Shown piece by piece: positions 1 to 28,156 of a DNA stretch of 28,156 bases. Position 1 is the first letter of the stretch; every line of letters starts with the position of its first letter. The stretch comes from Saccoglossus kowalevskii (Eukaryota; Hemichordata; Enteropneusta; Harrimaniidae): contig NW_003154107.1 in assembly GCF_000003605.2 (NCBI RefSeq), positions 1 through 28,156 on the forward strand, written 5' to 3'. Below the pieces are notes generated by a model, which was given only the letters and a program-made list of their open reading frames with translations, was not told the DNA's origin and did not search any database. The translations under genes and the position numbers were made by a program.

Positions 1-147
1 GGTAAATAACGACTAATACTATTTTGAAATTACGTAAAAATGTTCTTAAATTGCTCATACATGAACAAAATGAAGTGTTGGTAGGCATAGAGTGAATGAT
101 ATGGATACAAGTGTTTTATGTTGGCTAATATATAACATTAAAATAGA
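1..147. repeat. Partial array unit spacer at left edge
   Basis: Spacer of copy 1's neighbour, cut by the window edge. It is essentially the same as 25839-25985, and contains the palindrome TTACGTAA at 30-37. No gene is seen in it. Confidence 0.85.
30..37. promoter_or_regulatory. TTACGTAA palindrome in spacer
   Basis: Perfect 8-bp palindrome that matches a PAR/E4BP4-type bZIP consensus. One of two alternative forms found at the same place in nearly all spacers, about 60-70 bp upstream of a tRNA. Confidence 0.3.
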
Positions 148-219
148 AGGGAACAGCCGGGTTCGAACCAGGGACCTCTCGATCTGCAGTCGAATGCTCT
201 ACCACTGAGCTATATCCCC
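148..219 (-). tRNA. tRNA-Cys(GCA) copy 1, class I, G4:U69
   Basis: GCA anticodon and normal A and B boxes. Change at 152 turns C69 to U (G4:U69 wobble); change at 156 turns G65 to C, a mismatch with C49 at the base of the T stem. Near twin of copy 111. Confidence 0.85.
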
Positions 220-268
220 ACATGTATAAAATAAATATAGAACAATAACGACTGATACTATTTTGAAA

Positions 269-276
269 TTACGTCA
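269..276. promoter_or_regulatory. TTACGTCA element in spacer
   Basis: CRE/ATF-like octamer at the same spacer position as the TTACGTAA form of other units. Repeated in most units; binding is not shown by the sequence. Confidence 0.3.
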
Positions 277-383
277 TAATGTGCTTAAATTGTTCATACA
301 TAAACAAAATGAAGCGTTTAGGATAGAGTGAATGATCTGGACACAAGTGTTTTATGTTGGCAAATGCATAACATTAAAATAGA

Positions 384-455
384 AGTGAACACCCGGGTTC
401 GAACCAGGAACCTCTCGATCTGCAGTCGAATGCTCTACCACTGAGCTATATCCCC
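384..455 (-). tRNA. tRNA-Cys(GCA) copy 2, class I variant
   Basis: Changes at 386 (C71 to A, mismatch with G2), 388 (C69 to U, G4:U69) and 409 (C48 to U). Boxes intact. Shares all three with copy 112. Confidence 0.82.
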
Positions 456-622
456 ACATGTTTAAAATAAATATAGAAAAATAACGACTAATACTATTTT
501 GAAATTACGTCATAATGTGCTTAAATTGTTCATACATAAATAAAATGATGTGTTGTTACGCATACAGTGAATGATATGGATACAAGGGGTTTATTTCTGC
601 TAATATATAACATTAAAATTAA

Positions 623-694
623 AGGAGACACCCGGGTTCAAACCAGGGACCTCTCGATCTGCAGTCGAATGCTCTACCACTGAGCTATATTCCC
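623..694 (-). tRNA. tRNA-Cys-like copy 3, class II (C56U)
   Basis: C56 is U, which damages the B box. Also G3:U70 (626) and G4 to A (691), an A·C mismatch. GCA anticodon kept. Probably weak or silent. Confidence 0.65.
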
Positions 695-850
695 ACATGT
701 ATAAAATAAATATAGAACAATAACGACTGATACTATTTTGAAATTACGTCATTATGTGCTTAAATTGTTCATACAGAAACAAAATGAAGCGTTTAGGATA
801 GAGTGAATGATCTGGACACAAGTGTTTTATGTTGGCAAATGCATAACATT

Positions 851-854
851 AAAA
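851..854 (-). terminator. Pol III T4 terminator, class I type (copy 4)
   Basis: TTTT on the minus strand begins five bases after U73. The same run is at the same distance after nearly all class I copies; it is reduced or lost after copies 39, 46, 51, 54, 57, 85 and 95. Confidence 0.75.
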
Positions 855-869
855 TAGAAGGGGACACCC

Positions 870-880
870 GGGTTCGAACC
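870..880 (-). promoter_or_regulatory. B box of reference copy 4
   Basis: Reads GGTTCGAACCC on the minus strand, a perfect match to the B box consensus GGTTCGANNCC bound by TFIIIC. Class I copies share it. Class II reads GGTTTGAACCC, and class III reads GGTTTAAACCC. Confidence 0.9.
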
Positions 881-912
881 AGGGACCTCTCGATCTGCAG
901 TCGAATGCTCTA

Positions 913-923
913 CCACTGAGCTA
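913..923 (-). promoter_or_regulatory. A box of reference copy 4
   Basis: Reads TAGCTCAGTGG on the minus strand, tRNA positions 8-19, close to the A box consensus TRGCNNAGYGG. Confidence 0.85.
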
Positions 924-939
924 TATCCCCACATGTTTA

Positions 940-950
940 AAATAAATATA
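940..950 (-). promoter_or_regulatory. AT-rich TATA-like stretch upstream of copy 4
   Basis: Reads TATATTTATTT on the minus strand, about 10-20 bp before the mature 5' end. It recurs in almost every unit. It could help place TFIIIB, but the whole spacer is AT-rich, so the call is weak. Confidence 0.3.
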
Positions 951-1097
951 GAAAAATAACGACTAATACTATTTTGAAATTACGTCATAATGTGCTTAAA
1001 TTGTTCATACATAAATAAAATGAAGTGTTGTTACGCATACAGTGAATGATATGGATACAAGGGGTTTATTTCTGCTAATGTATAACATTAAAATTAA

Positions 1098-1169
1098 AGG
1101 AGACACCCGGGTTCAAACCAGGGACCTCTCGATCTGCAGTCGAATGCTCTACCACTGAGCTATATCCCC
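1098..1169 (-). tRNA. tRNA-Cys-like copy 5, class II, G3:U70
   Basis: C56U in the T loop and B box; C70 to U gives a G3:U70 wobble. Otherwise folds as copy 4. Confidence 0.68.
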
Positions 1170-1333
1170 ACATGTTTAAAACAAAGATAGAAAAATAACT
1201 ACTGATACAATTTTAAAATTACGTCATAATGTGCTTAAATTGTTCATCATAAACAAAATGAAGCGTTTAGGCATAGAGTGAATGATCTGGACACAAGTGT
1301 TTTATGTTGGCTAATATATAACATTAAAATAGA

Positions 1334-1405
1334 AAGGGACACCCGGGTTCGAACCAGGGACCTCTCGATCTGCAGTCGAATGCTCTACCACTGAGCTATA
1401 TCCCC
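1334..1405 (-). tRNA. tRNA-Cys(GCA) copy 6, class I, G1:U72
   Basis: Only difference from copy 4 is C72 to U, a G1:U72 wobble at the end of the acceptor stem. Same variant in copies 17, 30, 59 and 98. Confidence 0.9.
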
Positions 1406-1569
1406 ACATGATTAAAATAAATGTAGAAAAATAACGACTGATACTATTTTGAAATTACGTCATAATGTGCTTGAATTGTTCATGCATTAACAAAATAAAG
1501 TGTTTAGGATAGAGTGAATGATCTGGACACAAGTGTTTTATGTTGGCAAATGCATAACATTAAAATAGA

Positions 1570-1641
1570 AGGGGACACCCGGGTTCGAACCAGGTACCTC
1601 TCGATCTGCAGTCGAATGCTCTACCACTGAGCTATATCCCA
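1570..1641 (-). tRNA. tRNA-Cys(GCA) copy 7, class I variant
   Basis: G1 is U (1641), mismatched with C72, and C48 is A (1595), which removes the usual 15:48 tertiary pair. Boxes intact. Same pair of changes in copies 18 and 109. Confidence 0.82.
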
Positions 1642-1801
1642 ACATGTTCAAAATAAATATAGGAAAATAACGACTGATACTATATTGAAATTACGTATAA
1701 ACTGTGCTTAAATTGTTCATACATAAACAAAATGAAGTGTTGTTCGGCATACAGTGAATTATATGGATACAAGGGGTTTATTTCTGCTAATATATAACAT
1801 T

Positions 1802-1805
1802 AAAA
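1802..1805 (-). terminator. Pol III T4 terminator, class II type (copy 8)
   Basis: TTTT on the minus strand five bases after U73, in the class II version of the downstream flank. Confidence 0.7.
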
Positions 1806-1809
1806 TTAA

Positions 1810-1881
1810 AGGGGACACCCGGGTTCAAACCAGGGACCTCTCGATCTGCAGTCCAATGCTCTACCACTGAGCTATATCCCC
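1810..1881 (-). tRNA. tRNA-Cys-like copy 8, class II with anticodon stem mismatch
   Basis: C56U, plus C29 to G at 1854, a G·G mismatch with G41 in the anticodon stem. Same in copies 10, 19 and 58. Confidence 0.6.
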
Positions 1882-2046
1882 ACATGTTTAAAATAAATAT
1901 AGAAAAATAACTACTGATACTATTTTAAAATTACGTCATAATGTGCTTAAATTGTTCATACATAAACAAAATGAAGTGTTTAGGCATAGAGTGAATGATC
2001 TGGACACAAGTGTTTTATGTTGGCTAATGTATAACATTAAAATAGA

Positions 2047-2118
2047 AGGGGACACCCGGGTTCGAACCAGGGACCTCTCGATCTGCAGTCGAATGCTCTA
2101 CCACTGAGCTATATCCCC
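2047..2118 (-). tRNA. tRNA-Cys(GCA) copy 9, class I consensus
   Basis: Identical to copy 4, with a T4 terminator just downstream. Confidence 0.95.
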
Positions 2119-2285
2119 ACATGTTTAAAATAAATATAGAAAAATAACGACTAATACTATTTTGAAATTACGTCATAATGTGCTTAAATTGTTCATACAT
2201 AAATAAAATGATGTGTTGTTACGCATACAGTGAATGATATGGATACAAGGGGTTTATTTCTGCTAATATATAACATTAAAATTAA

Positions 2286-2357
2286 AGGGGACACCCGGGT
2301 TCAAACCAGGGACCTCTCGATCTGCAGTCCAATGCTCTACCACTGAGCTATATCCCC
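2286..2357 (-). tRNA. tRNA-Cys-like copy 10, class II with anticodon stem mismatch
   Basis: Same as copy 8 (C56U, C29G). With copy 11 it repeats copies 8-9 at 476 bp. Confidence 0.6.
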
Positions 2358-2522
2358 ACATGTTTAAAATAAATATAGAAAAATAACTACTGATACTATT
2401 TTAAAATTACGTCATAATGTGCTTAAATTGTTCATACATAAACAAAATGAAGTGTTTAGGCATAGAGTGAATGATCTGGACACAAGTGTTTTATGTTGGC
2501 TAATGTATAACATTAAAATAGA

Positions 2523-2594
2523 AGGGGACACCCGGGTTCGAACCAGGGACCTCTCGATCTGCAGTCGAATGCTCTACCACTGAGCTATATCCCC
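2523..2594 (-). tRNA. tRNA-Cys(GCA) copy 11, class I consensus
   Basis: Identical to copy 4, with the class I terminator. Confidence 0.95.
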
Positions 2595-2761
2595 ACATGT
2601 TTAAAATAAATATAGAAAAATAACGACTAATACTATTTTGAAATTACGTCATAATGTGCTTAAATTGTTCATACATAAATAAAATGATGTGTTGTTACGC
2701 ATACAGTGAATGATATGGATACAAGGGGTTTATTTCTGCTAATATATAACATTAAAATTAA

Positions 2762-2833
2762 AGGAGACACCCGGGTTCAAACCAGGGAACTCTCGATCTG
2801 CAGTCGAATGCTCTACCACTGAGCTATATTCCC
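2762..2833 (-). tRNA. tRNA-Cys-like copy 12, class II variant
   Basis: C56U, G3:U70, G4 to A (2830), plus a further change near 2790 in the variable region. Likely non-functional. Confidence 0.6.
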
Positions 2834-2997
2834 ACATGTATATAATAAATATAGAACAATAACGACTGATACTATTTTGAAATTACGTCATTATGTGCTT
2901 AAATTGTTCATACAGAAACAAAATGAAGCGTTTAGGATAGAGTGAATGATCTGGACACAAGTGTTTTATGTTGGCAAATGCATAACATTAAAATAGA

Positions 2998-3069
2998 AGG
3001 GGACACCCGGGTTCGAACCAGGGACCTCTCGATCTGCAGTCGAATGCTCTACCACTGAGCTATATCCCC
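2998..3069 (-). tRNA. tRNA-Cys(GCA) copy 13, class I consensus
   Basis: Identical to copy 4. Confidence 0.95.
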
Positions 3070-3236
3070 ACATGTTTAAAATAAATATAGAAAAATAACG
3101 ACTAATACTATTTTGAAATTACGTCATAATGTGCTTAAATTGTTCATACATAAATAAAATGATGTGTTGTTACGCATACAGTGAATGATATGGATACAAG
3201 GGGTTTATTTCTGCTAATATATAACATTAAAATTAA

Positions 3237-3308
3237 AGGAGACACCCGGGTTCAAACCAGGGACCTCTCGATCTGCAGTCGAATGCTCTACCACTGAGCT
3301 ATATTCCC
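3237..3308 (-). tRNA. tRNA-Cys-like copy 14, class II variant
   Basis: C56U, G3:U70 and G4 to A, as in copy 3, of which it is the 2614-bp duplicate. Confidence 0.63.
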
Positions 3309-3472
3309 ACATGTATAAAATAAATATAGAACAATAACGACTGATACTATTTTGAAATTACGTCATTATGTGCTTAAATTGTTCATACAGAAACAAAATG
3401 AAGCGTTTAGGATAGAGTGAATGATCTGGACACAAGTGTTTTATGTTGGCAAATGCATAACATTAAAATAGA

Positions 3473-3544
3473 AGGGGACACCCGGGTTCGAACCAGGGAC
3501 CTCTCGATCTGCAGTCGAATGCTCTACCACTGAGCTATATCCCC
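3473..3544 (-). tRNA. tRNA-Cys(GCA) copy 15, class I consensus
   Basis: Identical to copy 4, of which it is the 2614-bp duplicate. Confidence 0.95.
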
Positions 3545-3711
3545 ACATGTTTAAAATAAATATAGAAAAATAACGACTAATACTATTTTGAAATTACGTC
3601 ATAATGTGCTTAAATTGTTCATACATAAATAAAATGAAGTGTTGTTACGCATACAGTGAATGATATGGATACAAGGGGTTTATTTCTGCTAATATATAAC
3701 ATTAAAATTAA

Positions 3712-3783
3712 AGGAGACACCCGGGTTCAAACCAGGGACCTCTCGATCTGCAGTCGAATGCTCTACCACTGAGCTATATCCCC
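3712..3783 (-). tRNA. tRNA-Cys-like copy 16, class II, G3:U70
   Basis: Duplicate of copy 5: C56U and G3:U70, no other change. Confidence 0.67.
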
Positions 3784-3947
3784 ACATGTTTAAAACAAAG
3801 ATAGAAAAATAACTACTGATACAATTTTAAAATTACGTCATAATGTGCTTAAATTGTTCATCATAAACAAAATGAAGCGTTTAGGCATAGAGTGAATGAT
3901 CTGGACACAAGTGTTTTATGTTGGCTAATATATAACATTAAAATAGA

Positions 3948-4019
3948 AAGGGACACCCGGGTTCGAACCAGGGACCTCTCGATCTGCAGTCGAATGCTCT
4001 ACCACTGAGCTATATCCCC
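3948..4019 (-). tRNA. tRNA-Cys(GCA) copy 17, class I, G1:U72
   Basis: Duplicate of copy 6; only G1:U72 differs from consensus. Confidence 0.9.
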
Positions 4020-4183
4020 ACATGATTAAAATAAATGTAGAAAAATAACGACTGATACTATTTTGAAATTACGTCATAATGTGCTTGAATTGTTCATGCA
4101 TTAACAAAATAAAGTGTTTAGGATAGAGTGAATGATCTGGACACAAGTGTTTTATGTTGGCAAATGCATAACATTAAAATAGA

Positions 4184-4255
4184 AGGGGACACCCGGGTTC
4201 GAACCAGGTACCTCTCGATCTGCAGTCGAATGCTCTACCACTGAGCTATATCCCA
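4184..4255 (-). tRNA. tRNA-Cys(GCA) copy 18, class I variant
   Basis: Duplicate of copy 7 with the same G1-to-U and C48-to-A changes. Confidence 0.82.
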
Positions 4256-4423
4256 ACATGTTCAAAATAAATATAGGAAAATAACGACTGATACTATATT
4301 GAAATTACGTATAAACTGTGCTTAAATTGTTCATACATAAACAAAATGAAGTGTTGTTCGGCATACAGTGAATTATATGGATACAAGGGGTTTATTTCTG
4401 CTAATATATAACATTAAAATTAA

Positions 4424-4495
4424 AGGGGACACCCGGGTTCAAACCAGGGACCTCTCGATCTGCAGTCCAATGCTCTACCACTGAGCTATATCCCC
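4424..4495 (-). tRNA. tRNA-Cys-like copy 19, class II with anticodon stem mismatch
   Basis: Duplicate of copy 8: C56U and C29G. Confidence 0.6.
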
Positions 4496-4660
4496 ACATG
4501 TTTAAAATAAATATAGAAAAATAACTACTGATACTATTTTAAAATTACGTCATAATGTGCTTAAATTGTTCATACATAAACAAAATGAAGTGTTTAGGCA
4601 TAGAGTGAATGATCTGGACACAAGTGTTTTATGTTGGCTAATGTATAACATTAAAATAGA

Positions 4661-4732
4661 AGGGGACACCCGTGTTCGAACCAGGGACCTCTCGATCTGC
4701 AGTCGAATGCTCTACCACTGAGCTATATCCCC
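4661..4732 (-). tRNA. tRNA-Cys(GCA) copy 20, class I, C61 lost
   Basis: Single change at 4673 turns C61 to A. This breaks the G53:C61 pair that closes the T loop and hits a conserved B box base. Its parent, copy 9, is intact. Confidence 0.75.
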
Positions 4733-4873
4733 ACATGATTAAAATAAATATCGGAAAATAACGACTGATACTGTTTTGAAATTACGTAAAAAATGTGCTT
4801 AAATTGTTCATACATAAACAAAATGAAGTGTTGTTCGGCATAGAGTGAATGATATGAATACAAGGGGTTTATT

Positions 4874-4887
4874 TGAGCTATATCCCC
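4874..4887 (-). pseudogene. tRNA-Cys 5' remnant (copy 21)
   Basis: Only about the first 14 tRNA bases remain, joined directly to class II type spacer; the rest of the gene and its terminator flank are deleted. No B box, so no tRNA is expected. Confidence 0.85.
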
Positions 4888-5055
4888 ACATGTTTAAAAT
4901 AAATATAGGGAAATAACCACTGATACTATTTTGAAAGTACGTAAAAAATGTGCTTAAATTGTTCATACATAAACAAAATGAAGTGTTGTTCGGCATAGAG
5001 TGAATGATATGAATACAAGGGGTTTATTTGTGCTAATATACAACATTAAAATTAA

Positions 5056-5115
5056 AGGGGACACCCGGGACCTCTCGATCTGCAGTCGAATGCTCTACCA
5101 CTAAGCTATATCCCC
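5056..5115 (-). pseudogene. tRNA-Cys pseudogene copy 22, class IV (T-arm deletion)
   Basis: 60 nt long. Twelve bases of the T arm, including the B box core, are missing between two GGG runs on the plus strand. C13 is U. Anticodon GCA remains. Confidence 0.88.
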
Positions 5116-5587: not shown

Positions 5588-5753
5588 ACATGTCTAAAAT
5601 TAATATAGGAAAATAACGACTGATACTACTTTGAAATTACGTAAAATGTGCTTAAATTGTTCATACATAAACATACTGAAGTGTTGTTACGCATACAGTG
5701 AATGATATGGATACAAGGGGTTTATTTGAACTAATATATAACATTAAAATTAA

Positions 5754-5825
5754 AGGGGACACCCGGGTTCAAACCAGGGACCTCTCGATCTGCAGTCGAA
5801 TGCTCTACCACTGAGCTATATCCCC
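5754..5825 (-). tRNA. tRNA-Cys-like copy 25, class II
   Basis: C56U is the only change from consensus. Confidence 0.7.
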
Positions 5826-5992
5826 TCATGTTTAAAATAAATATAGGAAAATAACGACTGATACTATTTTGAAATTACGTAAAAATGTGCTTAAATTGTT
5901 CATACATAAACATACTGAAGTGTTGTTACGCATAGAGTGAACGATCTGGACACAAGTGTTTTATTTTGGCTAATGTATAACATAAAAATTGA

Positions 5993-6062
5993 AGGGGACA
6001 CCCGGGTTTAAACCGAGGACCTCTCGATCTACAGTCGAGCTCTACCACTGAGCTATATCCCC
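5993..6062 (-). pseudogene. tRNA pseudogene copy 26, class III, GUA anticodon
   Basis: Class III (2-nt deletion, C56U, G57A) with C35 changed to U, so the loop shows GUA, a tyrosine anticodon. Followed by a T5 run. Structure is damaged. Confidence 0.78.
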
Positions 6063-6227
6063 ACAAGTTTAAAATAAATATAGAAAAATAACGACTGATA
6101 CGATTTTGAAATTACGTCATAATGTGCTTAAATTATTCATACATAAACAAAATGAAGTGTTTAGGCATAGAGTGAAAGATCTGGACACAAGTGTTTTATG
6201 TTGGCTAATATATAACATTAAAATAGA

Positions 6228-6299
6228 AGGGGACACCCGGGTTCGAACCAGGGACCTCTCGATCTGCAGTCGAATGCTCTACCACTGAGCTATATCCCC
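6228..6299 (-). tRNA. tRNA-Cys(GCA) copy 27, class I consensus
   Basis: Identical to copy 4. Confidence 0.95.
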
Positions 6300-6466
6300 A
6301 CATGTTTAAAATAATTATAGAAAAATAACGACTGATATTATTTTGAAATTACGTCATAATGTGCTTAAATTGTTCATGCATAAATAAAATGAAGTGTTGT
6401 TACGCATACAGTGAATGATATGGATACAAGGGGTTTATTTGTGCTAATATATAACATTAAAATTAA

Positions 6467-6538
6467 AGGGGACACCCGGGTTCAAACCAGGGACCTCTCG
6501 ATCTGCAGTCGAATGCTCTATCACTGAGCTATATCCCC
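6467..6538 (-). tRNA. tRNA-Cys-like copy 28, class II with A19:U56
   Basis: C56U is joined by G19 to A (6521), so the elbow pair 19:56 can form as A:U. B box and end of A box are still altered. Confidence 0.68.
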
Positions 6539-6705
6539 ACATGTTTAAACTAAATATAGGTAAATAACGACTAATACTATTTTGAAATTACATAAAAATG
6601 TGCTTAAATTGTTCATACATGAACAAACTGAAGTGTTGGTAGGCATAGAGTGAATGATATGGATACAAGTGTTTTAAGTTGGCTAATGTATAACATTAAA
6701 ATAGA

Positions 6706-6775
6706 AGGGGACACCCGGGTTTAAACCGAGGACCTCTCGATCTGCAGTCGAGCTCTACCACTGAGCTATATCCCC
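6706..6775 (-). pseudogene. tRNA-Cys pseudogene copy 29, class III
   Basis: 70 nt. Lacks two bases around positions 26-27, leaving no linker and a 4-bp anticodon stem; T loop reads TTTAAAC. GCA anticodon kept. Confidence 0.75.
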
Positions 6776-6940
6776 ACATCTTTAAAATAAATATAGGAAA
6801 ATAACTACTGATACAATTTTGAAATTACGTCATAATGTGCTTAAATTATTCATACATAAACAAAATGAAGTGTTTAGGCATAGAGTGAAAGATCTGGACA
6901 CAAGTGTTTTATGTTGGCTAATATATAACATTAAAATAGA

Positions 6941-7012
6941 AAGGGACACCCGGGTTCGAACCAGGGACCTCTCGATCTGCAGTCGAATGCTCTACCACTG
7001 AGCTATATCCCC
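6941..7012 (-). tRNA. tRNA-Cys(GCA) copy 30, class I, G1:U72
   Basis: Only G1:U72 differs from consensus. Confidence 0.9.
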
Positions 7013-7180
7013 ACACTGTTTAAAATAATTATAGAAAAATAACGACTGATATTATTTTGAAATTACGTCATAATGTGCTTAAATTGTTCATGCATAAATA
7101 AAATGAAGTGTTGATACGCATACAGTGAATGATATGGATACATGGGGTTTATTTGTGCTAATATATAACATTAAAATTAA

Positions 7181-7252
7181 AGGGGACACCCGGGTTCAAA
7201 CCAGGGACCTCTCGATCTGCAGTCGAATGCTCTATCACTGAGCTATATCCCC
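7181..7252 (-). tRNA. tRNA-Cys-like copy 31, class II with A19:U56
   Basis: Same double change as copy 28. Confidence 0.68.
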
Positions 7253-7419
7253 ACATGTTTAAACTAAATATAGGTAAATAACGACTAATACTATTTTGAA
7301 ATTACGTAAAAATGTGCTTAAATTGTTCATGCATGAACAAACTGAAGTGTTGGTAGGCATAGAGTGAATGATATGGATACAAGTGTTTTATGTTGGCTAA
7401 TGTATAACATTAAAATAGA

Positions 7420-7491
7420 AGGGGACACCCGGGTTCGAACCAGGGACCTCTCGATCTGCAGTCGAATGCTCTACCACTGAGCTATATCCCC
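7420..7491 (-). tRNA. tRNA-Cys(GCA) copy 32, class I consensus
   Basis: Identical to copy 4, but it occupies the place where the surrounding trimer pattern would have class III; its downstream flank is of class I. Confidence 0.94.
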
Positions 7492-7658
7492 ACATGTTTA
7501 AAATAATTATAGAAAAATAACGACTGATATTATTTTGAAATTACGTCATAATGTGCTTAAATTGTTCATGCATAAATAAAATGAAGTGTTGTTACGCATA
7601 CAGTGAATGATATGGATACAAGGGGTTTATTTGTGCTAATATATAACATTAAAATTAA

Positions 7659-7730
7659 AGGGGACACCCGGGTTCAAACCAGGGACCTCTCGATCTGCAG
7701 TCGAATGCTCTACCACTCAGCTATATCCCC
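7659..7730 (-). tRNA. tRNA-Cys-like copy 33, class II, D stem mismatch
   Basis: C56U, plus C13 to G (7718), a mismatch with G22 in the D stem. Confidence 0.6.
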
Positions 7731-7898
7731 TCATGTTTAAAATAAATATAGGAAAATAACGACTGATACTATTTTGAAATTACGTAAAAATGTGCTTAAA
7801 TTGTTCATACATAAACATACTGAAGTGTTGTTACGCATAGAGTGAACGATCTGGACACAAGTGTTTTATGTTGGCTAATGTATAACATTAAAAATTGA

Positions 7899-7968
7899 AG
7901 GGGACACCCGGGTTTAAACCGAGGACCTCTCGATCTGCAGTCGAGCTCTACCACTGAGCTATATCCCC
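7899..7968 (-). pseudogene. tRNA-Cys pseudogene copy 34, class III
   Basis: Standard class III: 2-nt deletion, TTTAAAC T loop, T5 run downstream at 7890-7894. Confidence 0.75.
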
Positions 7969-8135
7969 ACAAGTTTAAAATAAATATAGAAAAATAACGA
8001 CTGATACGATTTTGAAATTACGTCATAATGTGCTTAAATTATTCATACACAAACAAAATGAAGTGTTGTTACGCATACAGTGAATGATATAGATACAAGG
8101 GGTTTATCTGTGCTAATATATTACATTAAAATTAA

Positions 8136-8207
8136 AGGGGACGCCCGGGTTCAAACCAGGGACCTCTCGATCTGCAGTCGAATGCTCTACCACTGAGCTA
8201 TATCCCC
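8136..8207 (-). tRNA. tRNA-Cys-like copy 35, class II, A7·C66
   Basis: C56U, and U66 to C (8143) gives an A7·C66 mismatch at the base of the acceptor stem. Confidence 0.6.
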
Positions 8208-8366
8208 TCATGTTTAAAAATAAATATAGGAAAATAACGACTGATACTATTTTGAAATTACGTAAAAATGTGCTTAAATTGTTCATACATAAACATACTG
8301 AGGTGTTGTTACGCATAGAGTGAATGATCTGGACACAAGTGTTTTATGTTGGCTAATGTATAACAT

Positions 8367-8371
8367 AAAAA
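8367..8371 (-). terminator. Pol III T5 terminator, class III type (copy 36)
   Basis: Class III flanks carry TTTTT, a longer run than class I or II, although the upstream class III gene is structurally damaged. Confidence 0.65.
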
Positions 8372-8375
8372 TTGA

Positions 8376-8445
8376 AGGGGACACCCGGGTTTAAACCGAG
8401 GACCTCTCGATCTGCAGTCGAGCTCTACCACTGAGCTATATCCCC
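8376..8445 (-). pseudogene. tRNA-Cys pseudogene copy 36, class III
   Basis: Standard class III with T5 terminator at 8367-8371. Confidence 0.75.
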
Positions 8446-8612
8446 ACAAGTTTAAAATAAATATAGAAAAATAACGACTGATACGATTTTGAAATTACGT
8501 CATAATGTGCTTAAATTATTCATACACAAACAAAATGAAGTGTTGTTACGCATACAGTGAATGATATAGATACAAGGGGTTTATCTGTGCTAATATATTA
8601 CATTAAAATTAA

Positions 8613-8684
8613 AGGGGACGCCCGGGTTCAAACCAGGGACCTCTCGATCTGCAGTCGAATGCTCTACCACTGAGCTATATCCCC
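8613..8684 (-). tRNA. tRNA-Cys-like copy 37, class II, A7·C66
   Basis: 477-bp duplicate of copy 35 with the same changes. Confidence 0.6.
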
Positions 8685-8852
8685 TCATGTTTAAAAATAA
8701 ATATAGGAAAATAACGACTGATACTATTTTGAAATTACGTAAAAATGTGCTTAAATTGTTCATACATAAACATACTGAGGTGTTGTTACGCATAGAGTGA
8801 ATGATCTGGACACAACTGTTTTATGTTGGCTAATGTATAACATAAAAATTGA

Positions 8853-8922
8853 AGGGGACACCCGGGTTTAAACCGAGGACCTCTCGATCTGCAGTCGAGC
8901 TCTACCACTGAGCTATATCCCC
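8853..8922 (-). pseudogene. tRNA-Cys pseudogene copy 38, class III
   Basis: 477-bp duplicate of copy 36. Confidence 0.75.
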
Positions 8923-9087
8923 ACAAGTTTAAAATAAATATAGATAAATAACGACTGATACGATTTTGAAATTACGTCCTAATGTGCTTAAATTGTTCAT
9001 ACATAAACAAAATGAAGTGTTTAGGCATAGAGTGAAAGATCTGGACACAAGTGTTTTATGTTGGCTAATATATAACATTAAAGTAGA

Positions 9088-9159
9088 AGGGGACACCCGG
9101 GTTCGAACCAGGGACCTCTCGATCTGCAGTCGAATGCTCTACCACTGAGCTATATCCCC
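9088..9159 (-). tRNA. tRNA-Cys(GCA) copy 39, class I consensus, T3 only downstream
   Basis: tRNA body identical to copy 4. The usual T4 run is interrupted to TTT; the next T4 on the minus strand is at 9009-9012, about 76 bases on. Confidence 0.92.
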
Positions 9160-9326
9160 ACAAGTTTAAAATAAATATAGAAAAATAACGACTGATACGA
9201 TTTTGAAATTACGTCATAATGTGCTTAAATTATTCATACACAAACAAAATGAAGTGTTGTTACGCATACAGTGAATGATATAGATACAAGGGGTTTATCT
9301 GTGCTAATATATTACATTAAAATTAA

Positions 9327-9398
9327 AGGGGACGCCCGGGTTCAAACCAGGGACCTCTCGATCTGCAGTCGAATGCTCTACCACTGAGCTATATCACC
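9327..9398 (-). tRNA. tRNA-Cys-like copy 40, class II, acceptor damage
   Basis: C56U, A7·C66, and G3 to U (9396), a second acceptor mismatch. Confidence 0.55.
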
Positions 9399-9566
9399 TC
9401 ATGTTTAAAAATAAATATAGGAAAATAACGACTGATACTATTTTGAAATTACGTAAAAATGTGCTTAAATTGTTCATACATAAACATACTGAAGTGTTGT
9501 TACGCATAGAGTGAATGATATGAATACAAGGGGTTTATTTGTGCTAATATACAACATTAAAATTAA

Positions 9567-9626
9567 AGGGGACACCCGGGACCTCTCGATCTGCAGTCGA
9601 ATGCTCTACCACTAAGCTATATCCCC
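9567..9626 (-). pseudogene. tRNA-Cys pseudogene copy 41, class IV
   Basis: 60 nt, the same 12-bp T-arm deletion and C13-to-U change as copy 22. Confidence 0.87.
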
Positions 9627-9791
9627 ACATCTTTAAAATAAATATAAGAAAATAACTACTGATACGATTTTGAAATTACGTCATAATGTGCTTAAATTGT
9701 TCATACATAAACAAAATGAAGTGTTTAGGCATAGAGTGAAAGATCTGGACACAAGTGTTTTATGTTGGCTAATATATAACATTAAAATAGA

Positions 9792-9863
9792 AGAGAACAT
9801 CCGGGTTCGAACCAGGGACCTCTCGATCTGCAGTCGAATGCTCTACCACTGAGCTATATCCCC
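9792..9863 (-). tRNA. tRNA-Cys(GCA) copy 42, class I, weak acceptor
   Basis: G2:U71 (9794), G4:U69 (9796) and G65 to A (9800, mismatch with C49). Boxes intact. Confidence 0.75.
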
Positions 9864-10030
9864 ACATGTTTAAAATAATTATAGAAAAATAACGACTGAT
9901 ATTATTTTGAAATTACGTCATAATGTGCTTAAATTGTTCATGCATAAATAAAATGAAGTGTTCTTACGCATACAGTGAATGATATGGATACAAGGGGTTT
10001 ATTTGTGCTAATATATAACATTAAAATTAA

Positions 10031-10102
10031 AGGGGACACCCGGGTTCAAACCAGGGACCTCTCGATCTGCAGTCGAATGCTCTGCCACTGAGCTATATCC
10101 CC
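10031..10102 (-). tRNA. tRNA-Cys-like copy 43, class II
   Basis: C56U, and U20 to C in the D loop, a tolerant position. Confidence 0.66.
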
Positions 10103-10270
10103 ACATGTTTCAAAAAAATATCGGAAAATAACGACTGATACTATTTTGAAATTACGTAAAAAATGTGCTTAAATTGTTCATACATAAACAAAATGAAGTG
10201 TTGTTCGGCATAGAGTGAATGATATGAATACAAGGGGTTTATTTGTGCTAATATACAACATTAAAATTAA

Positions 10271-10330
10271 AGGGGACACCCGGGACCTCTCGATCTGCAG
10301 TCGAATGCTCTACCACTAAGCTATATCCCC
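10271..10330 (-). pseudogene. tRNA-Cys pseudogene copy 44, class IV
   Basis: 60 nt, same deletion as copy 22, which it duplicates at about 5215 bp. Confidence 0.87.
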
Positions 10331-10496
10331 ACATCTTTAAAATAAATATAAGAAAATAACTACTGATACAATTTTAAAATTACGTCATAATGTGCTTAAA
10401 TTGTTCATACATAAACAAAATGAAGCGTTTAGGCATAGAGTGAATGATCTGGACACAAGTGTTTTATGTTAGCTAATGTATAACATTAAAATAGAA

Positions 10497-10565
10497 AGGG
10501 GACACCCGGGTTAAAGCGAGGACCTCTCGATCTCAAGTCGAGCTCTACCACTGAGCTATATCCCC
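10497..10565 (-). pseudogene. tRNA pseudogene copy 45, class III, UGA anticodon
   Basis: 69 nt: as copy 23 but with one more base lost from the T loop. Anticodon reads UGA. Confidence 0.8.
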
Positions 10566-10730
10566 ACAAGTTTAAAATAAATATAGAAAAATAACTAATG
10601 ATACAATTTTAAAATTACGTCAAATTGTGCTTACATTTTTAATACATAAACAAAATGAAGTGTTTTGACATAGAGTGAATGATCTGGACACAAGTGTTTT
10701 ATGTTCGCTAATGCATAACATTAAAGTAGA

Positions 10731-10802
10731 AGGGGACACCCGGGTTCGAACCAGGGACCTCTCGATCTGCAGTCGAATGCTCTACCACTGAGCTATATCC
10801 CC
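10731..10802 (-). tRNA. tRNA-Cys(GCA) copy 46, class I consensus, T3 only downstream
   Basis: Body identical to copy 4; downstream run reduced to TTT. Confidence 0.92.
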
Positions 10803-17293: not shown

Positions 17294-17363
17294 AGGGGAC
17301 ACCCGGGTTTAAACCGAGGACCTCTCGATCTGCAGTCGAGCTCTACCACTGAGCTACATCCCC
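17294..17363 (-). pseudogene. tRNA-Cys pseudogene copy 74, class III
   Basis: Class III with A7 to G, a G7:U66 wobble. Confidence 0.75.
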
Positions 17364-17528
17364 ACAAGTTTAAAATAAATATAGAAAAATAACGACTGAT
17401 ACGATTTTGAAATTACGTCATAATGTGCTTAAATTGTTCATACATAAACAAAATGAAGTGTTTAAGCATAGAGTGAAAGATCTGGACACAAGTGTTTTAT
17501 GTTGGCTAATATATAACATTAAAATAGA

Positions 17529-17599
17529 AGGGGACACCCGGGTTCGATCCAGGGACCTCTCGAATGCAGTCGAATGCTCTACCACTGAGCTATATCCCC
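17529..17599 (-). pseudogene. tRNA-Cys copy 75, damaged class I
   Basis: 71 nt: U54 is A in the B box, and one base is lost in the 3' side of the anticodon loop or stem near 17561-17570. Confidence 0.76.
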
Positions 17600-17766
17600 A
17601 CATGTTTAAAATAATTACAGAAAAATAACGACTGATATTATTTTGAAATTACGTCATAATGTGCTTAAATTGTTCATGCATAAATAAAATGAAGTGTTGC
17701 TACGCATACAGTGAATGATATGGATACAAGGGGTTTATTTGTGCTAATATATAACATTAAAATTAA

Positions 17767-17838
17767 AGGGGACACCCGGGTTCAAACCAGGGACCTCTCG
17801 ATCTGCAGTCGAATGCTCTATCACTGAGCTATATCCCC
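17767..17838 (-). tRNA. tRNA-Cys-like copy 76, class II with A19:U56
   Basis: 712-bp duplicate of copy 73. Confidence 0.68.
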
Positions 17839-18005
17839 ACATGTTTAAACTAAATATAGGTAAATAACGACTGATACTATTTTGAAATTACGTAAAAATG
17901 TGCTTAAATTGTTCATACATAAACATACTGAAGTGTTGTTACGCATAGAGTGAATTATCTGGACACAAGTGTTTTATGTTGGCTAATGTATAACATAAAA
18001 ATTGA

Positions 18006-18075
18006 AGGGGACACCCGGGTTTAAACCGAGGACCTCTCGATCTGCAGTCGAGCTCTACCACTGAGCTACATCCCC
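18006..18075 (-). pseudogene. tRNA-Cys pseudogene copy 77, class III
   Basis: 712-bp duplicate of copy 74, with A7 to G. Confidence 0.75.
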
Positions 18076-18240
18076 ACAAGTTTAAAATAAATATAGAAAA
18101 ATAACGACTGATACGATTTTGAAATTACGTCATAATGTGCTTAAATTGTTCATACATAAACAAAATGAAGTGTTTAAGCATAGAGTGAAAGATCTGGACA
18201 CAAGTGTTTTATGTTGGCAAATATATAACATTAAAATAGA

Positions 18241-18312
18241 AGGGGACACCCGGGTTCGAACCAGGGACCTCTCGATCTGCAGTCGAATGCTCTACCACTG
18301 AGCTATATCCCC
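18241..18312 (-). tRNA. tRNA-Cys(GCA) copy 78, class I consensus
   Basis: Identical to copy 4; the undamaged relative of copy 75. Confidence 0.95.
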
Positions 18313-18480
18313 ACATGTTTAAAATAATTATAGAAAAATAACGACTGATATTATTTTGAAATTACGTCATAATGTGCTTAAATTGTTCATGCATAAATAA
18401 AATGAAGTGTTGTTACGCATACAGTGAATGATATGGATACAAGGGGTTTATTTGTGCTAATATATAAACATTAAAATTAA

Positions 18481-18552
18481 AGGGGACACCCGGGTTCAAA
18501 CCAGGGACCTCCCGATCTGCAGTCGAATGCTCTATCACTGAGCTATATCCCC
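18481..18552 (-). tRNA. tRNA-Cys-like copy 79, class II with A19:U56
   Basis: C56U, G19A and A42 to G (18512), a U28·G42 wobble. Confidence 0.65.
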
Positions 18553-18719
18553 ACATGTTTAAACTAAATATAGGTAAATAACGACTAATACTATTTTGAA
18601 ATTACGTAAAAATGTGCTTAAATTGTTCATACATGAACAAACTGAAGTGTTGGTAGGCATAGAGTGAATGATATGGATACAAGTGTTTTATGTTGGCTAA
18701 TGTATAACATTAAAATAGA

Positions 18720-18791
18720 AGGGGACACCCGGGTTTAAACCGAGGACCTCTCGATCTGCAGTCGAATGCTCTACCACTGAGCTATATCCTC
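18720..18791 (-). pseudogene. tRNA-Cys copy 80, III/I chimera
   Basis: Full 72 nt: class III T arm (TTTAAAC) joined to an undeleted D/anticodon region. G2 is A (18790). The mirror image of copies 65 and 81. Confidence 0.72.
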
Positions 18792-18956
18792 ACATCTTTA
18801 AAATAAATATAGGAAAATAACTACTGATACAATTTTAAAATTACGTCATAATGTGCTTAAATTGTTCATACATAAACAAAATGAAGCGTTTAGGCATAGA
18901 GTGAATGATCTGGACACAAGTGTTTTATGTTGGCTAATATATATCATTAAAATAGA

Positions 18957-19026
18957 AGGGGACACCCGGGTTCGAACCACGGACCTCTCGATCTGCAGTC
19001 GAGCTCTACCACTGAGCTATATCCCC
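18957..19026 (-). pseudogene. tRNA-Cys copy 81, I/III chimera
   Basis: Class I T loop with the class III 2-nt deletion, plus one extra mismatch at the start of the T stem. Confidence 0.74.
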
Positions 19027-19191
19027 ACATGTTTAAAATAAATATAGAAAAATAACTAATGATACAATTTTAAAATTACGTCAAATTGTGCTTACATTTT
19101 TAATACATAAACAAAATGAAGTGTTTTGACATAGAGTGAATGATCTGGACACAAGTGTTTTATGTTCGCTAATGCATAACATTAAAATAGA

Positions 19192-19263
19192 ATAGGACAC
19201 CCGGGTTCGAACCAGGGACCTCTCGATCTGCAGTCGAATGCTCTACCACTAAGGTATATTCCC
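19192..19263 (-). pseudogene. tRNA-Cys copy 82, decayed class I
   Basis: C72 to A and C71 to U, D stem altered at 10 and 13, G4 to A. B box intact. Shares the D stem damage with copy 66. Confidence 0.72.
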
Positions 19264-19430
19264 ACATGTTTAAAATAAATATAGAAAAATAACGACTGAT
19301 ACTATTTTAAAATTACGTCATAATGTGCTTAAATTGTTCATACATAAATAAAATGAAGTGTTGTTACGCATACAGTGAATGATATAGATACAAGGGTTTT
19401 ATCTGTGCTAATATATTACATTAAAATTAA

Positions 19431-19502
19431 AGGGGACACCCGGGTTCAATCCAGGGACCTCTCGATCTGCAGTCGAATGCTCTACCACTGAGCTATATCC
19501 CC
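19431..19502 (-). tRNA. tRNA-Cys-like copy 83, class II, U54 lost
   Basis: C56U plus U54 to A, two hits in the B box. Confidence 0.58.
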
Positions 19503-19670
19503 TCATGTTTAAAAATAAATATAGGAAAATAACGACTGATACTATTTTGAAATTACGTAAAAATGTGCTTAAATTGTTCATACATAAACATACTGAAGTG
19601 TTGTTACGCATAGAGTGAATGATCTGGACACAAGTGTTTTATGTTGGTTAATGTATAACATAAAAATTGA

Positions 19671-19740
19671 AGGGGACACCCGGGTTTAAACCGAGGACCT
19701 CTCGATCTGCAGTCGAGCTCTACCACTGAGCTATATCCCC
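19671..19740 (-). pseudogene. tRNA-Cys pseudogene copy 84, class III
   Basis: Standard class III with T5 run. Confidence 0.75.
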
Positions 19741-19905
19741 ACAAGTTTAAAATAAATATAGAAAAATAACGACTGATACGATTTTGAAATTACGTCATAA
19801 TGTGCTTAAATTGTTCATACATAAACAAAGTGAAGTGTTTAGGCATAGAGTGAAAGATCTGGACACAAGTGTTTTATGTTGGCTAATATATAACATTTAA
19901 ATAGA

Positions 19906-19977
19906 AGGGGACACCCGGGTTCGAACCAGGGAACTCTCGATCTGCAGTCGAATACTCTACCACTGAGCTATATCCCC
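19906..19977 (-). tRNA. tRNA-Cys(GCA) copy 85, class I variant, no T4
   Basis: C25 to U (G10:U25) and a change in the variable region; downstream T run is only TTT. Confidence 0.8.
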
Positions 19978-20144
19978 ACATGTTTAAAATAATTATAGAA
20001 AAATAACGACTGATATTATTTTGAAATTACGTCATAATGTGCTTAAATTGTTCATGCATAAATAAAATGAAGTGTTGTTACGCATACAGTGAATGATATG
20101 GATACAAGGGGTTTATTTGTGCTAATATATAACATTAAAATTAA

Positions 20145-20216
20145 AGGGGACACCCGGGTTCAAACCAGGTACCTCTCGATCTGCAGTCGAATGCTCTATC
20201 ACTGAGCTATATCCCC
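20145..20216 (-). tRNA. tRNA-Cys-like copy 86, class II with A19:U56
   Basis: C56U, G19A and C48 to A. Confidence 0.64.
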
Positions 20217-20383
20217 ACATGTTTAAACTAAATATAGGTAAATAGCGACTAATACTATTTTGAAATTACGTAAAAATGTGCTTAAATTGTTCATACATGA
20301 ACAAACTGAAGTGTTGGTAGGCATAGAGTGAATGATATGGATACAAGTGTTTTATGTTGGCTAATGTATAACATTAAAATAGA

Positions 20384-20453
20384 AGGGAACACCCGGGTTT
20401 AAACCGAGGACCTCTCGATCTGCAGTCGAGCTCTACAACTGAGCTATATCACC
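20384..20453 (-). pseudogene. tRNA-Cys pseudogene copy 87, class III
   Basis: Class III with G4:U69, G3 to U and G19 to U. Confidence 0.76.
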
Positions 20454-20618
20454 ACATCTTTAAAATAAATATAGGAAAATAACTACTGATACAATTTTAA
20501 AATTACGTCATAATGTGCTTAAATTGTTCATACATAAACAAAATGAAGCGTTTAGGCATAGAGTGAATGATCTGGACACAAGTGTTTTATGTTGGCTAAT
20601 ATATAACATTAAAATAGA

Positions 20619-20690
20619 AGGGGACACCCGGGTTCGAACCAGGTACCTCTCGATCTGCAGTCGAATGCTCTACTACTGAGCTATATCCCC
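20619..20690 (-). tRNA. tRNA-Cys(GCA) copy 88, class I variant
   Basis: C48 to A, and the conserved D-loop G18 is A. B box intact. Confidence 0.78.
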
Positions 20691-25818: not shown

Positions 25819-25985
25819 ACATGTTTAAACTAAATATAGGTAAATAACGACTAATACTATTTTGAAATTACGTAAAAATGTTCTTAAATTGCTCATACAT
25901 GAACAAAATGAAGTGTTGGTAGGCATAGAGTGAATGATATGGATACAAGTGTTTTATGTTGGCTAATATATAACATTAAAATAGA

Positions 25986-26057
25986 AGGGAACACCCGGGT
26001 TCGAACCAGGGACCTCTCGATCTGCAGTCGAATGCTCTACCACTGAGCTATATCCCC
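25986..26057 (-). tRNA. tRNA-Cys(GCA) copy 111, class I, G4:U69
   Basis: The single change C69 to U gives G4:U69; everything else matches copy 4, with both boxes and T4 intact. Confidence 0.92.
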
Positions 26058-26221
26058 ACATGTATAAAATAAATATAGAACAATAACGACTGATACTATT
26101 TTGAAATTACGTCATAATGTGCTTAAATTGTTCATACATAAACAAAATGAAGCGTTTAGGATAGAGTGAATGATCTGGACACAAGTGTTTTATGTTGGCA
26201 AATGCATAACATTAAAATAGA

Positions 26222-26293
26222 AGTGAACACCCGGGTTCGAACCAGGAACCTCTCGATCTGCAGTCGAATGCTCTACCACTGAGCTATATCCCC
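26222..26293 (-). tRNA. tRNA-Cys(GCA) copy 112, class I variant
   Basis: Duplicate of copy 2: G2·A71, G4:U69 and C48 to U. Confidence 0.82.
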
Positions 26294-26461
26294 ACATGTT
26301 TTAAAAATAAATATAGAAAATAACGACTAATACTATTTTGAAATTACGTCATAATGTGCTTAAATTGTTCATACATAAATAAAATGAAGTGTTGTTACGC
26401 ATACAGTGAATGATATGGATACAAGGGGTTTATTTCTGCTAATATATAACATTAAAATTAA

Positions 26462-26533
26462 AGGGGACACCCGGGTTCAAACCAGGGACCTCTCGATCTG
26501 CTGTCGAATGCTCTACCACTGAGCTATATCCCC
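26462..26533 (-). tRNA. tRNA-Cys-like copy 113, class II, U33A
   Basis: Duplicate of copy 103. Confidence 0.6.
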
Positions 26534-26697
26534 ACATGTTTAAAATAAATATAGAAAAATAACTACTGATACAATTTTAAAATTACGTCATAATGTGCTT
26601 AAATTGTTCATCATAAACAAAATGAAGCGTTTAGGCATAGAGTGAATGATCTGGACACAAGTGTTTTATGTTGGCTAATATATAACATTAAAATAGA

Positions 26698-26769
26698 AGG
26701 GGACATCCGGGTTCGAACCAGGGACCTCTCGATCTGCAGTCGAATGTTCTACCACTGAGCTATATCCCC
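26698..26769 (-). tRNA. tRNA-Cys(GCA) copy 114, class I variant
   Basis: G65 to A (mismatch with C49) and G24 to A (mismatch in the D stem). Duplicate of copy 104, but without its G2:U71. Confidence 0.8.
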
Positions 26770-26933
26770 ACATGTATAAAATAAATATAGAACAATAACG
26801 ACTGATACTATTTTGAAATTACGTCATTATGTGCTTAAATTGTTCATACATAAACAAAATGAAGCGTTTAGGATAGAGTGAATGATCTGGACACAAGTGT
26901 TTTATGTTGGCAAATGCATAACATTAAAATAGA

Positions 26934-27005
26934 AGAGGACACCCGGGTTCGAACCAGGGACCTCTCGATCTGCAGTCGAATGCTCTACCACTGAGCTATA
27001 TCCCC
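26934..27005 (-). tRNA. tRNA-Cys(GCA) copy 115, class I, G2:U71
   Basis: Duplicate of copy 105. Confidence 0.9.
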
Positions 27006-27169
27006 ACATGTTTAAAACAAATATAGAAAAATAACTACTGATACAATTTTAAAATTACGTCATAATGTGCTTAAATTGTTCATCATAAACAAAATGAAGC
27101 GTTTAGGCATAGAGTGAATGATCTGGACACAAGTGTTTTATGTTGGCAAATGCATAACATTAAAATAGA

Positions 27170-27241
27170 AGGGGACACCCGGGTTCGAACCAGGGACCTC
27201 TCGATCTGCAGTAGAATGCTCTACCACTCAGCTATATCCCC
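27170..27241 (-). tRNA. tRNA-Cys(GCA) copy 116, class I, stem mismatches
   Basis: Duplicate of copy 106 (G30U, C13G). Confidence 0.76.
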
Positions 27242-27409
27242 ACATGTTTAAAATAAATATAGGAAAATAACGACTGATACTATATTGAAATTACGTATAA
27301 ACTGTGCTTAAATTGTTCATACATAAACAAAATGAAGTGTTGTTCGGCATAGAGTGAATGATATGAATACATGGGGTTTATTTGTACTAATATACAACAT
27401 TAAAATTAA

Positions 27410-27481
27410 AGGGGACACCCGGGTTTGAACCAGGGACCTGTCGATCTGCAGTCGAATGCTCTACCACTGAGCTATATCCCC
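27410..27481 (-). tRNA. tRNA-Cys(GCA) copy 117, class V
   Basis: Cleanest class V copy: T loop TTCAAAC with a valid B box; only G43C otherwise. Confidence 0.84.
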
Positions 27482-27648
27482 ACATGTTTAAACTAAATAT
27501 AGGTAAATAACGACTAATACTATTTTGAAATTACGTAAAAATGTTCTTAAATTGCTCATACATGAACAAAATGAAGTGTTGGTAGGCATAGAGTGAATGA
27601 TATGGATACAAGTGTTTTATGTTGGCTAATATATAACATTAAAATAGA

Positions 27649-27720
27649 ATGAGACACCCGAGTTCGAACCAGGGACCTCTCGATCTGCAGTCGAATGCTC
27701 TACCACTGAGCTATATCCCC
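27649..27720 (-). tRNA. tRNA-Cys(GCA) copy 118, class I variant
   Basis: C72 to A (mismatch with G1), G3:U70, and C61 to U in the B box. Confidence 0.75.
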
Positions 27721-27887
27721 ACATGTATAAAATAAATATAGAACAATAACGACTGATACTATTTTGAAATTACGTCATAATGTGCTTAAATTGTTCATAC
27801 ATAAATAAAATGAAGTGTTGTTACGCATACAGTGAATGATATGGATACAAGGGGTTTATTTCTGCTAATATATAACATTAAAATTAA

Positions 27888-27959
27888 AGGAGACACCCGG
27901 GTTCAAACCAGGGACCTCTCGATCTGCAGGCGAATGCTCTACCACTGAGCTATATCCCC
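27888..27959 (-). tRNA. tRNA-Cys-like copy 119, class II, G3:U70
   Basis: C56U, G3:U70 and A31 to C in the anticodon stem. Confidence 0.62.
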
Positions 27960-28127
27960 ACATGTTTAAAATTAATATAGGAAAATAACGACTGATACTA
28001 TTTTGAAATTACGTAAACATGTGCTTAAACTGTTCATACATAAACATACTGAAGTGTTGTTACGCATACAGTGAATGATATGAATACAAGTGTTTTATGT
28101 TGGCTAATATATAACATTTAAAATAGA

Positions 28128-28156
28128 AGGGACACCCGGGTTCGAACCAGAGACCT
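28128..28156 (-). tRNA. Partial tRNA-Cys copy 120 at window edge
   Basis: Only the 3' part is inside the window: acceptor 3' strand (one G short), T arm with intact TTCGAAC loop, and one change in the T stem/variable region. The anticodon lies outside. Confidence 0.75.

Follow-up and report, generated by a model that had tools for sequence, protein, structure and literature searches.

A tRNA-Cys(GCA) gene as the likely source of a satellite in the genome of the acorn worm Saccoglossus kowalevskii

Large clusters of transfer RNA (tRNA) genes, or tDNAs, and one small tandem cluster of tRNA-Cys genes are already on record in the accounts of PMC2888827 and PMC10701932. Here, we describe a stretch of 28,156 bp from the hemichordate Saccoglossus kowalevskii (contig NW_003154107.1 in its entirety, C4368 in our numbering; hereafter the window) that is occupied from end to end by a tandem array of tRNA-Cys(GCA) units, and consider it likely that a tRNA-Cys(GCA) gene with ~165 bp of its flank was amplified head to tail and is now satellite DNA in this genome. 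The tRNA-Cys(GCA) cluster on chromosome 5 of Arabidopsis thaliana is, as described, of the same isoacceptor, with units of ~0.4 kb, a pseudogene in the cluster and copy-number variation of whole units, and it is reported to be largely silent; it differs in having 4-6 units against the 332 in four contigs here and in belonging to a plant rather than an animal, and higher-order repeats are not among the features that the account describes (PMC10701932). The tDNA clusters of Nematostella and teleosts, as set out in PMC2888827, are comparable in holding at least 50 tDNAs with mostly parallel neighbours, but neighbouring pairs in Nematostella and zebrafish are mostly heterogeneous, whereas the acorn worm arrays each consist of one isoacceptor in short monomers. 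The human tRNA variable number tandem repeat at 1q23.3 is likewise tandem, with an unstable copy number of 9-43 units per allele, but its units are given as 7.3 kb long and binding CTCF (PMC4041453).

The tRNA genes of Entamoeba histolytica are also described as lying in long tandem arrays (PMC2888827). The acorn worm differs from Entamoeba in possessing dispersed genes beside decaying arrays. In Entamoeba, arrays are said to be the main form of tRNA gene organisation. Judged by titles and the beginnings of abstracts, no report of tRNA satellites in hemichordates was found among the matches listed from the open-access literature. New in the acorn worm are the size of the arrays, their short monomers of a single isoacceptor arranged in higher-order repeats, and the fact that four isoacceptors are affected.

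Architecture of the tRNA-Cys array

Every one of the 108 tRNAs that ARAGORN calls in the window is on the minus strand; 105 of them are Cys(GCA), and the other three are one Tyr, one Ser and one undetermined call. The Rfam tRNA model gives 116 matches above its gathering score, and no other Rfam family reaches its own gathering score in the window. Anchoring on the tRNA 5' ends yields 119 starts and 118 complete units, mostly of 235-240 bp; incomplete units at the ends of contigs, and any that lack a discernible tRNA 5' end, are not tallied separately. These results bear out the original prediction, made from the letters of the window alone, of a single-isoacceptor tRNA-Cys gene repeated head to tail in about 120 co-oriented units with no other gene. 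It had also claimed that the array runs past both edges: the array does reach both ends of the contig, and continuation beyond them is likely but was not seen. With one isoacceptor and neighbours within 1000 nt, the array is a homogeneous tDNA cluster as PMC2888827 words the definition, although, strictly, the Tyr, Ser and undetermined calls break the Cys run.

In the assembly searched (572,110,611 bases in 4830 contigs), the same satellite also fills three further whole contigs, C926 (28,897 bases), C682 (10,012) and C3449 (10,228), giving a total of 77,293 bases and 332 complete units. A 29-base spacer pattern has 237 matches genome-wide, every one of them in these four contigs, and a tRNA-Cys core pattern has 210, of which 208 are in them; the reversed patterns, used as controls, match nowhere in the genome. 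The four contigs are not mutual duplicates, as the longest stretch at ≥97% between any two extends over 1,969 columns (98.2%) and the longest exact stretch common to two is 848 bp; within the window, the longest stretch at ≥97% has 2,267 columns (97.9%). The shortness of these shared stretches rules out that the contigs are haplotype copies of one another.

Each unit comprises a tRNA of ~72 nt, a run of four Ts and a spacer of ~165 bp (74% AT). The T run lies ~6 nt past the tRNA in 186 of the 203 full-length units and is found within 40 nt in 187 (in the window, 80 of 87 full-length units have it). Clustering at 8% over whole units, tRNA columns included, divides the 332 units into classes A (110), B (80), C (64), D (53) and the small classes E-H (25 together). 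The modal class A tRNA is a perfect gene and equals a dispersed gene on contig C4510 that has unrelated flanks; that of class B has the changes G19A and C56T and a changed T loop, with G19 retained in 40 of 71 full-length B units; that of class C has a 2-nt deletion and several changes in the T arm. The 24 units of 226-229 bp, in which much of the T arm is gone, are all of class D, and the 27 units of 152-156 bp in the four contigs, whose tRNA is cut after 14 nt, belong to D (18), B (8) and A (1). The order of units is non-random: ACB is found 39 times, whereas 2000 shuffles contain it 5.2 times on average and at most 15 times, and mean identity between units peaks at a lag of three (0.922, compared with 0.899 for neighbouring units, or lag 1, and 0.902-0.913 for the remaining lags examined). 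We interpret these class blocks, higher-order repeats and repeated truncations as arising from unequal exchange among units. The array is thus, as a satellite should be, a long head-to-tail succession of similar units without other genes, in which unit classes recur in higher-order repeats. The prediction that a tRNA gene had become a satellite is borne out by contigs made of array only, by the classes and their higher-order repeats, and by the recurring truncated units. A chromatin boundary or a source of tRNA fragments, roles that it also suggested, are ones that the array may have. The principal features of the window are as follows:

1..28156, minus strand: tRNA-Cys(GCA) satellite, whole contig, 118 complete units (ARAGORN, Rfam, unit anchoring)
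1..4880, minus strand: a 475-bp dimer (94% matches) fits better than a 236-bp monomer (89%)
2047..2118, minus strand: intact tRNA-Cys, identical to the dispersed gene on C4510 (Rfam, checklist described below)
Minus strand, lower coordinates of the other 15 exact copies: 859, 2523, 2998, 3473, 5516, 6228, 7420, 9088, 10731, 11921, 13970, 14683, 16109, 18241, 20855
2039..2042, minus strand: run of four Ts, like a terminator of RNA polymerase III (Pol III), just downstream of the tRNA at 2047..2118
5588..20690, minus strand: all 13 of the 13 ACB trimers of the window, ~713 bp each, made of A, C with the 2-nt deletion and B with the changed T loop
6706..6775, minus strand: example of a class-C-type tRNA, 70 nt, in which the T loop is altered and 2 nt are missing between the D arm and the anticodon arm
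5056..5115, minus strand: 60-nt tRNA without most of the T arm; also 9567-9626, 10271-10330, 13031-13090 and 21250-21309
4719..5035, minus strand: place of a 155-bp short unit with the tRNA cut after 14 nt; also 12693-13010 and 20913-21229 (three in the window)
5993..6062, minus strand: unit with a tRNA-Tyr call, an altered anticodon call (ARAGORN)
15874..15943, minus strand: unit with a tRNA-Ser call (ARAGORN)

Integrity and diversity of the units

A strict checklist of 21 cloverleaf pairs, 13 conserved positions, the GCA anticodon and the run of four Ts is passed by 22 of the 118 units in the window and by 56 of the 332 over the four contigs. Intact units are, therefore, a minority, well short of the earlier estimate that perhaps half of the copies look usable; most units are nonetheless called tRNA by ARAGORN or Rfam. 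Identity to the reference tRNA-Cys, namely the dispersed gene on C4510, is seen in 16 units of the window and 45 of the 332. C56, a key position of both the B box and the T loop, is altered in 36 of 87 full-length units in the window and in 90 of 203 over the four contigs. Beside the Tyr and Ser calls in the window, the other Cys contigs contain units with Trp, Tyr and Phe anticodon calls (L025 2945-3016, L027 8359-8430, L028 3114-3183 and L030 523-592). Such an anticodon on a Cys-type body could be harmful if expressed, which hints at silence.

Contigs C4510 (100% over 73 bases of the query) and C3532 (94% over 72) each have a dispersed tRNA-Cys gene, and this count, like those of other dispersed tRNA genes given here, is a lower bound. 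By sequence, these two account for the two core matches outside the arrays, and their flanks, compared by eye, are unlike the array spacer. The greater part of the cysteine supply probably comes from these two genes, and expression of the array is probably low or nil.

Over all 332 units, diversity is 0.055 in the tRNA versus 0.108 in the spacer (p 0.004 by permutation and 0.013 by circular shift). Taken class by class, the tRNA and spacer values are 0.047 and 0.056 in A, 0.027 and 0.047 in B, 0.036 and 0.049 in C, and 0.041 and 0.042 in D, with the order reversed in E (0.034 versus 0.023); none of the whole-class comparisons in A, B, C, D and E gives a value below 0.05. Substitutions that keep base pairs are not in clear excess within classes either (12 of 32 in A versus 9.1 expected; 5 of 13 in B versus 4.0). 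Because the gap between tRNA and spacer shrinks within classes and pair-keeping changes are not in excess, constraint is seen between classes and hardly among the present units; selection on single units leaves no clear signal in either measure.

A19 occurs only together with T56, in 37 of 37 full-length units that are mainly of class B, and resembles the G19-C56 tertiary pair swapped for A-U. We do not count this as a compensatory change that would be evidence for function, since the 40 of 71 full-length B units with G19 keep it alongside T56, and one event followed by descent may suffice.

Further tRNA satellites in the same genome

The assembly contains further satellites of Arg(TCG), Trp(CCA) and two Phe-type units, so that at least five tRNA satellites of four isoacceptors are present in this genome. 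Together, the Cys, Arg, Trp and Phe-type arrays amount to ~359 kb if their contigs are array throughout (parts of them were read, and pattern matches span much of the rest). Across the genome, a preliminary scan with the Rfam tRNA model returned 25,204 candidates; 63 of these were scored, and the genome may hold further tRNA arrays or tRNA-derived repeats.

The Arg(TCG) satellite lies on C237 (36,627 bases), C1937 (51,187) and C3006 (16,305), and its core has 161 matches at up to three mismatches in 39 (100 listed) against none for the control. In C237:1-10000, where the repeat is a 565-bp dimer, a loose E-value cutoff of 10 picks up 36 tRNA anchors, of which the 18 near-intact ones (90-100%) alternate strictly with the 18 that are decayed (76-81% over 40-60 nt). 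The consensus of the intact copies is perfect, and the spacers of the two monomers align locally at best over 19 bp with 16 identities. Over 16 dimers, diversity is 0.032 in the intact tRNA, 0.043 in the decayed tRNA and 0.029 in the spacer. Relative to a dispersed Arg gene on C3484, the array tRNA has two changes that jointly turn a G-U into a C-G pair, with the pairing assigned by hand. The Trp(CCA) satellite, on C577 (12,172 bases) and C4826 (15,000), has a unit of ~466 bp with a canonical consensus, and tRNA and spacer diversity do not differ significantly over 14 units (0.047 versus 0.052). Its core has 47 matches, one of them with array-like flanks on the 158-kb scaffold C3109; this copy may mark an array edge.

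The two Phe-type satellites have units of 459 bp (C4641, 49,891 bases; C544, 38,323; C4721, 11,900) and ~853 bp (C913, 50,532), and tRNA and spacer diversity over 21 units is again not significantly different (0.038 versus 0.049). Copies with an insert of 33-35 nt in the T loop are seen in both satellites, whose spacers are unrelated, and among dispersed copies. All 79 copies examined keep the core up to GGTTCAA, after which 72 reach TCCCGGGTT or a one-base variant of it following 33-35 nt; the other seven have no visible 3' part, and none of the 79 is uninterrupted. In four copies, the mature parts are identical at 67-71 of 72-73 positions and the inserts at 21-30 of 35-36 aligned columns. 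The insert forms a hairpin of 7 bp that is paired in 42 of 42 cells over six copies (including dispersed ones on C47 and C3373, and with two of the six known in part), and two of its pairs are changed on both sides. Four of 500 six-copy shuffles reach its paired percentage and covariation score, but 188 of 500 reach the number of pairs changed on both sides; for the whole structure in the first four copies, 39 of 500 shuffles score as high, pair counts being weak at that sample size. Folding energies of four copies are not clearly below those of shuffles (z -1.20, 0.24, -0.80 and -0.34). A T stem bearing the insert hairpin folds only in the two copies of the 459-bp family, the C913 and C47 copies fold no cloverleaf, and ARAGORN calls no tRNA in Phe-type copies. 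An uninterrupted tRNA-Phe is absent from the 40 candidates scored out of 349, has no pattern match and does not appear with 0-1 mismatch among the listed matches, a result that we do not use as evidence, since a normal gene could lie outside the sequence searched. PMC4090602 names nucleomorphs and Cyanidioschyzon as eukaryotic sources of tRNAs with non-canonical introns; where tRNAs from elsewhere have short insertions in the D or T arm, these are presumed to be pseudogenes. That the T-loop insert represents such an intron, in a nuclear tRNA-Phe of an animal, seems doubtful to us; the copies may instead form a lineage of pseudogenes that has spread.

Beyond these satellites, contig C4830 of the assembly (17,037 bases) is mitochondrial, with COX1 inverted, nd5 adjoining cob, ND2 preceding ND1 and a tRNA-Lys with UUU; in the frames counted, AAA is used and AGG is absent. 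The traits given for the S. kowalevskii mitochondrion are the COX1 inversion, the ND1/ND2 transposition, AAA as Lys, no AGG, a tRNA-Lys with UUU and adjacent nd5 and cob (PMC3121625; PMC2697986, as far as these accounts go), and the contig agrees with Saccoglossus in gene order and codon traits, a comparison of traits rather than a sequence match. Similar DNA in phages amounts to 48 records without any place covering 80% of the query, and the 20 shown of these are tRNA genes or unannotated.

Origin of the satellites

Under the reading that we prefer, single tRNA genes would be amplified and then evolve as satellites via unequal exchange. Unequal exchange or conversion would have enlarged and homogenised the Cys array, and selection would act weakly on any one unit but, in the longer run, preserve an intact Pol III gene in the consensus of the array, such that most units would decay and the consensus stay intact. 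Because the genome holds so many tRNA satellites of different isoacceptors, tRNA genes appear to have seeded them repeatedly in this lineage. The canonical Cys, Arg and Trp consensus sequences beside diverged spacers and decayed partners point to past constraint or to re-seeding from the gene. Certain observations weigh against this reading. No array edge in unique sequence was seen across the four Cys contigs. Full-length B units show lower diversity in the tRNA than in the spacer (p 0.041 by permutation, 0.092 by circular shift), a hint that constraint acted to some degree in the recent past. The classes were drawn with tRNA columns included, which somewhat lowers tRNA diversity within them, and what we take for long-term constraint could instead be re-seeding from a functional gene.

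Among the alternatives, a dosage array, in which copies are kept for a high need of tRNA-Cys as in ribosomal DNA arrays, would account for the 56 of 332 units that pass the full checklist and for the T run that follows the tRNA in 187 of 203 full-length units. We consider it unlikely, as defects affect the majority of units (a changed C56 in 90 of 203 full-length ones, deletions in classes C and D), some units have other anticodon calls, and the Trp, Arg and Phe-type arrays would each require the same argument. An equally improbable proposal is that intact Pol III genes are kept, one per higher-order repeat, as chromosomal elements, with bound TFIIIC or Pol III in a boundary, centromere or folding role. 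The alternation of 18 near-intact and 18 decayed tRNAs in the Arg satellite speaks for it, as does the perfection of the intact Arg consensus though the spacers of its monomers hardly align; yet the diversity of the intact Arg tRNA is not below that of the spacer, and the Trp and Phe-type samples show no significant difference between the two. A marginally better, though still doubtful, prospect is a lineage in which satellites arise recurrently from tRNA genes, with one Pol III unit of every higher-order repeat staying intact for a chromosomal job while its partners decay.

An inflated or misjoined repeat in the assembly would suit contigs that end inside the array, but is very improbable given that the four contigs differ in unit order and share no stretch at ≥97% beyond 1,969 columns (98.2%) nor an exact one beyond 848 bp. 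tRNA heads are typical of short interspersed nuclear elements (SINEs), and the units might be tandem copies of a tRNA-headed retroposon. Satellites derived from SINEs have indeed been reported, as PMC10702118 states; in the acorn worm, however, the T run directly follows the tRNA and the one 29-base spacer piece searched genome-wide occurs only in the four array contigs, so that, on these two points, a dispersed SINE body is not found with the tRNA head, and we give this origin the least credence of all.

The amplified tRNA-Cys gene and its counterparts present essential Pol III genes caught turning into satellite DNA, repeatedly within a single genome and at various stages: Trp monomers with an intact consensus, Arg dimers with one partner decayed, Cys trimers with graded decay, and Phe-type copies that, where read, carry an insert. 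This makes it possible to test whether a gene persists within a satellite through selection, re-seeding or drift, and what effect promoters within satellites have on chromatin. The acorn worm genome is thus well suited to the study of how genes turn into satellites.

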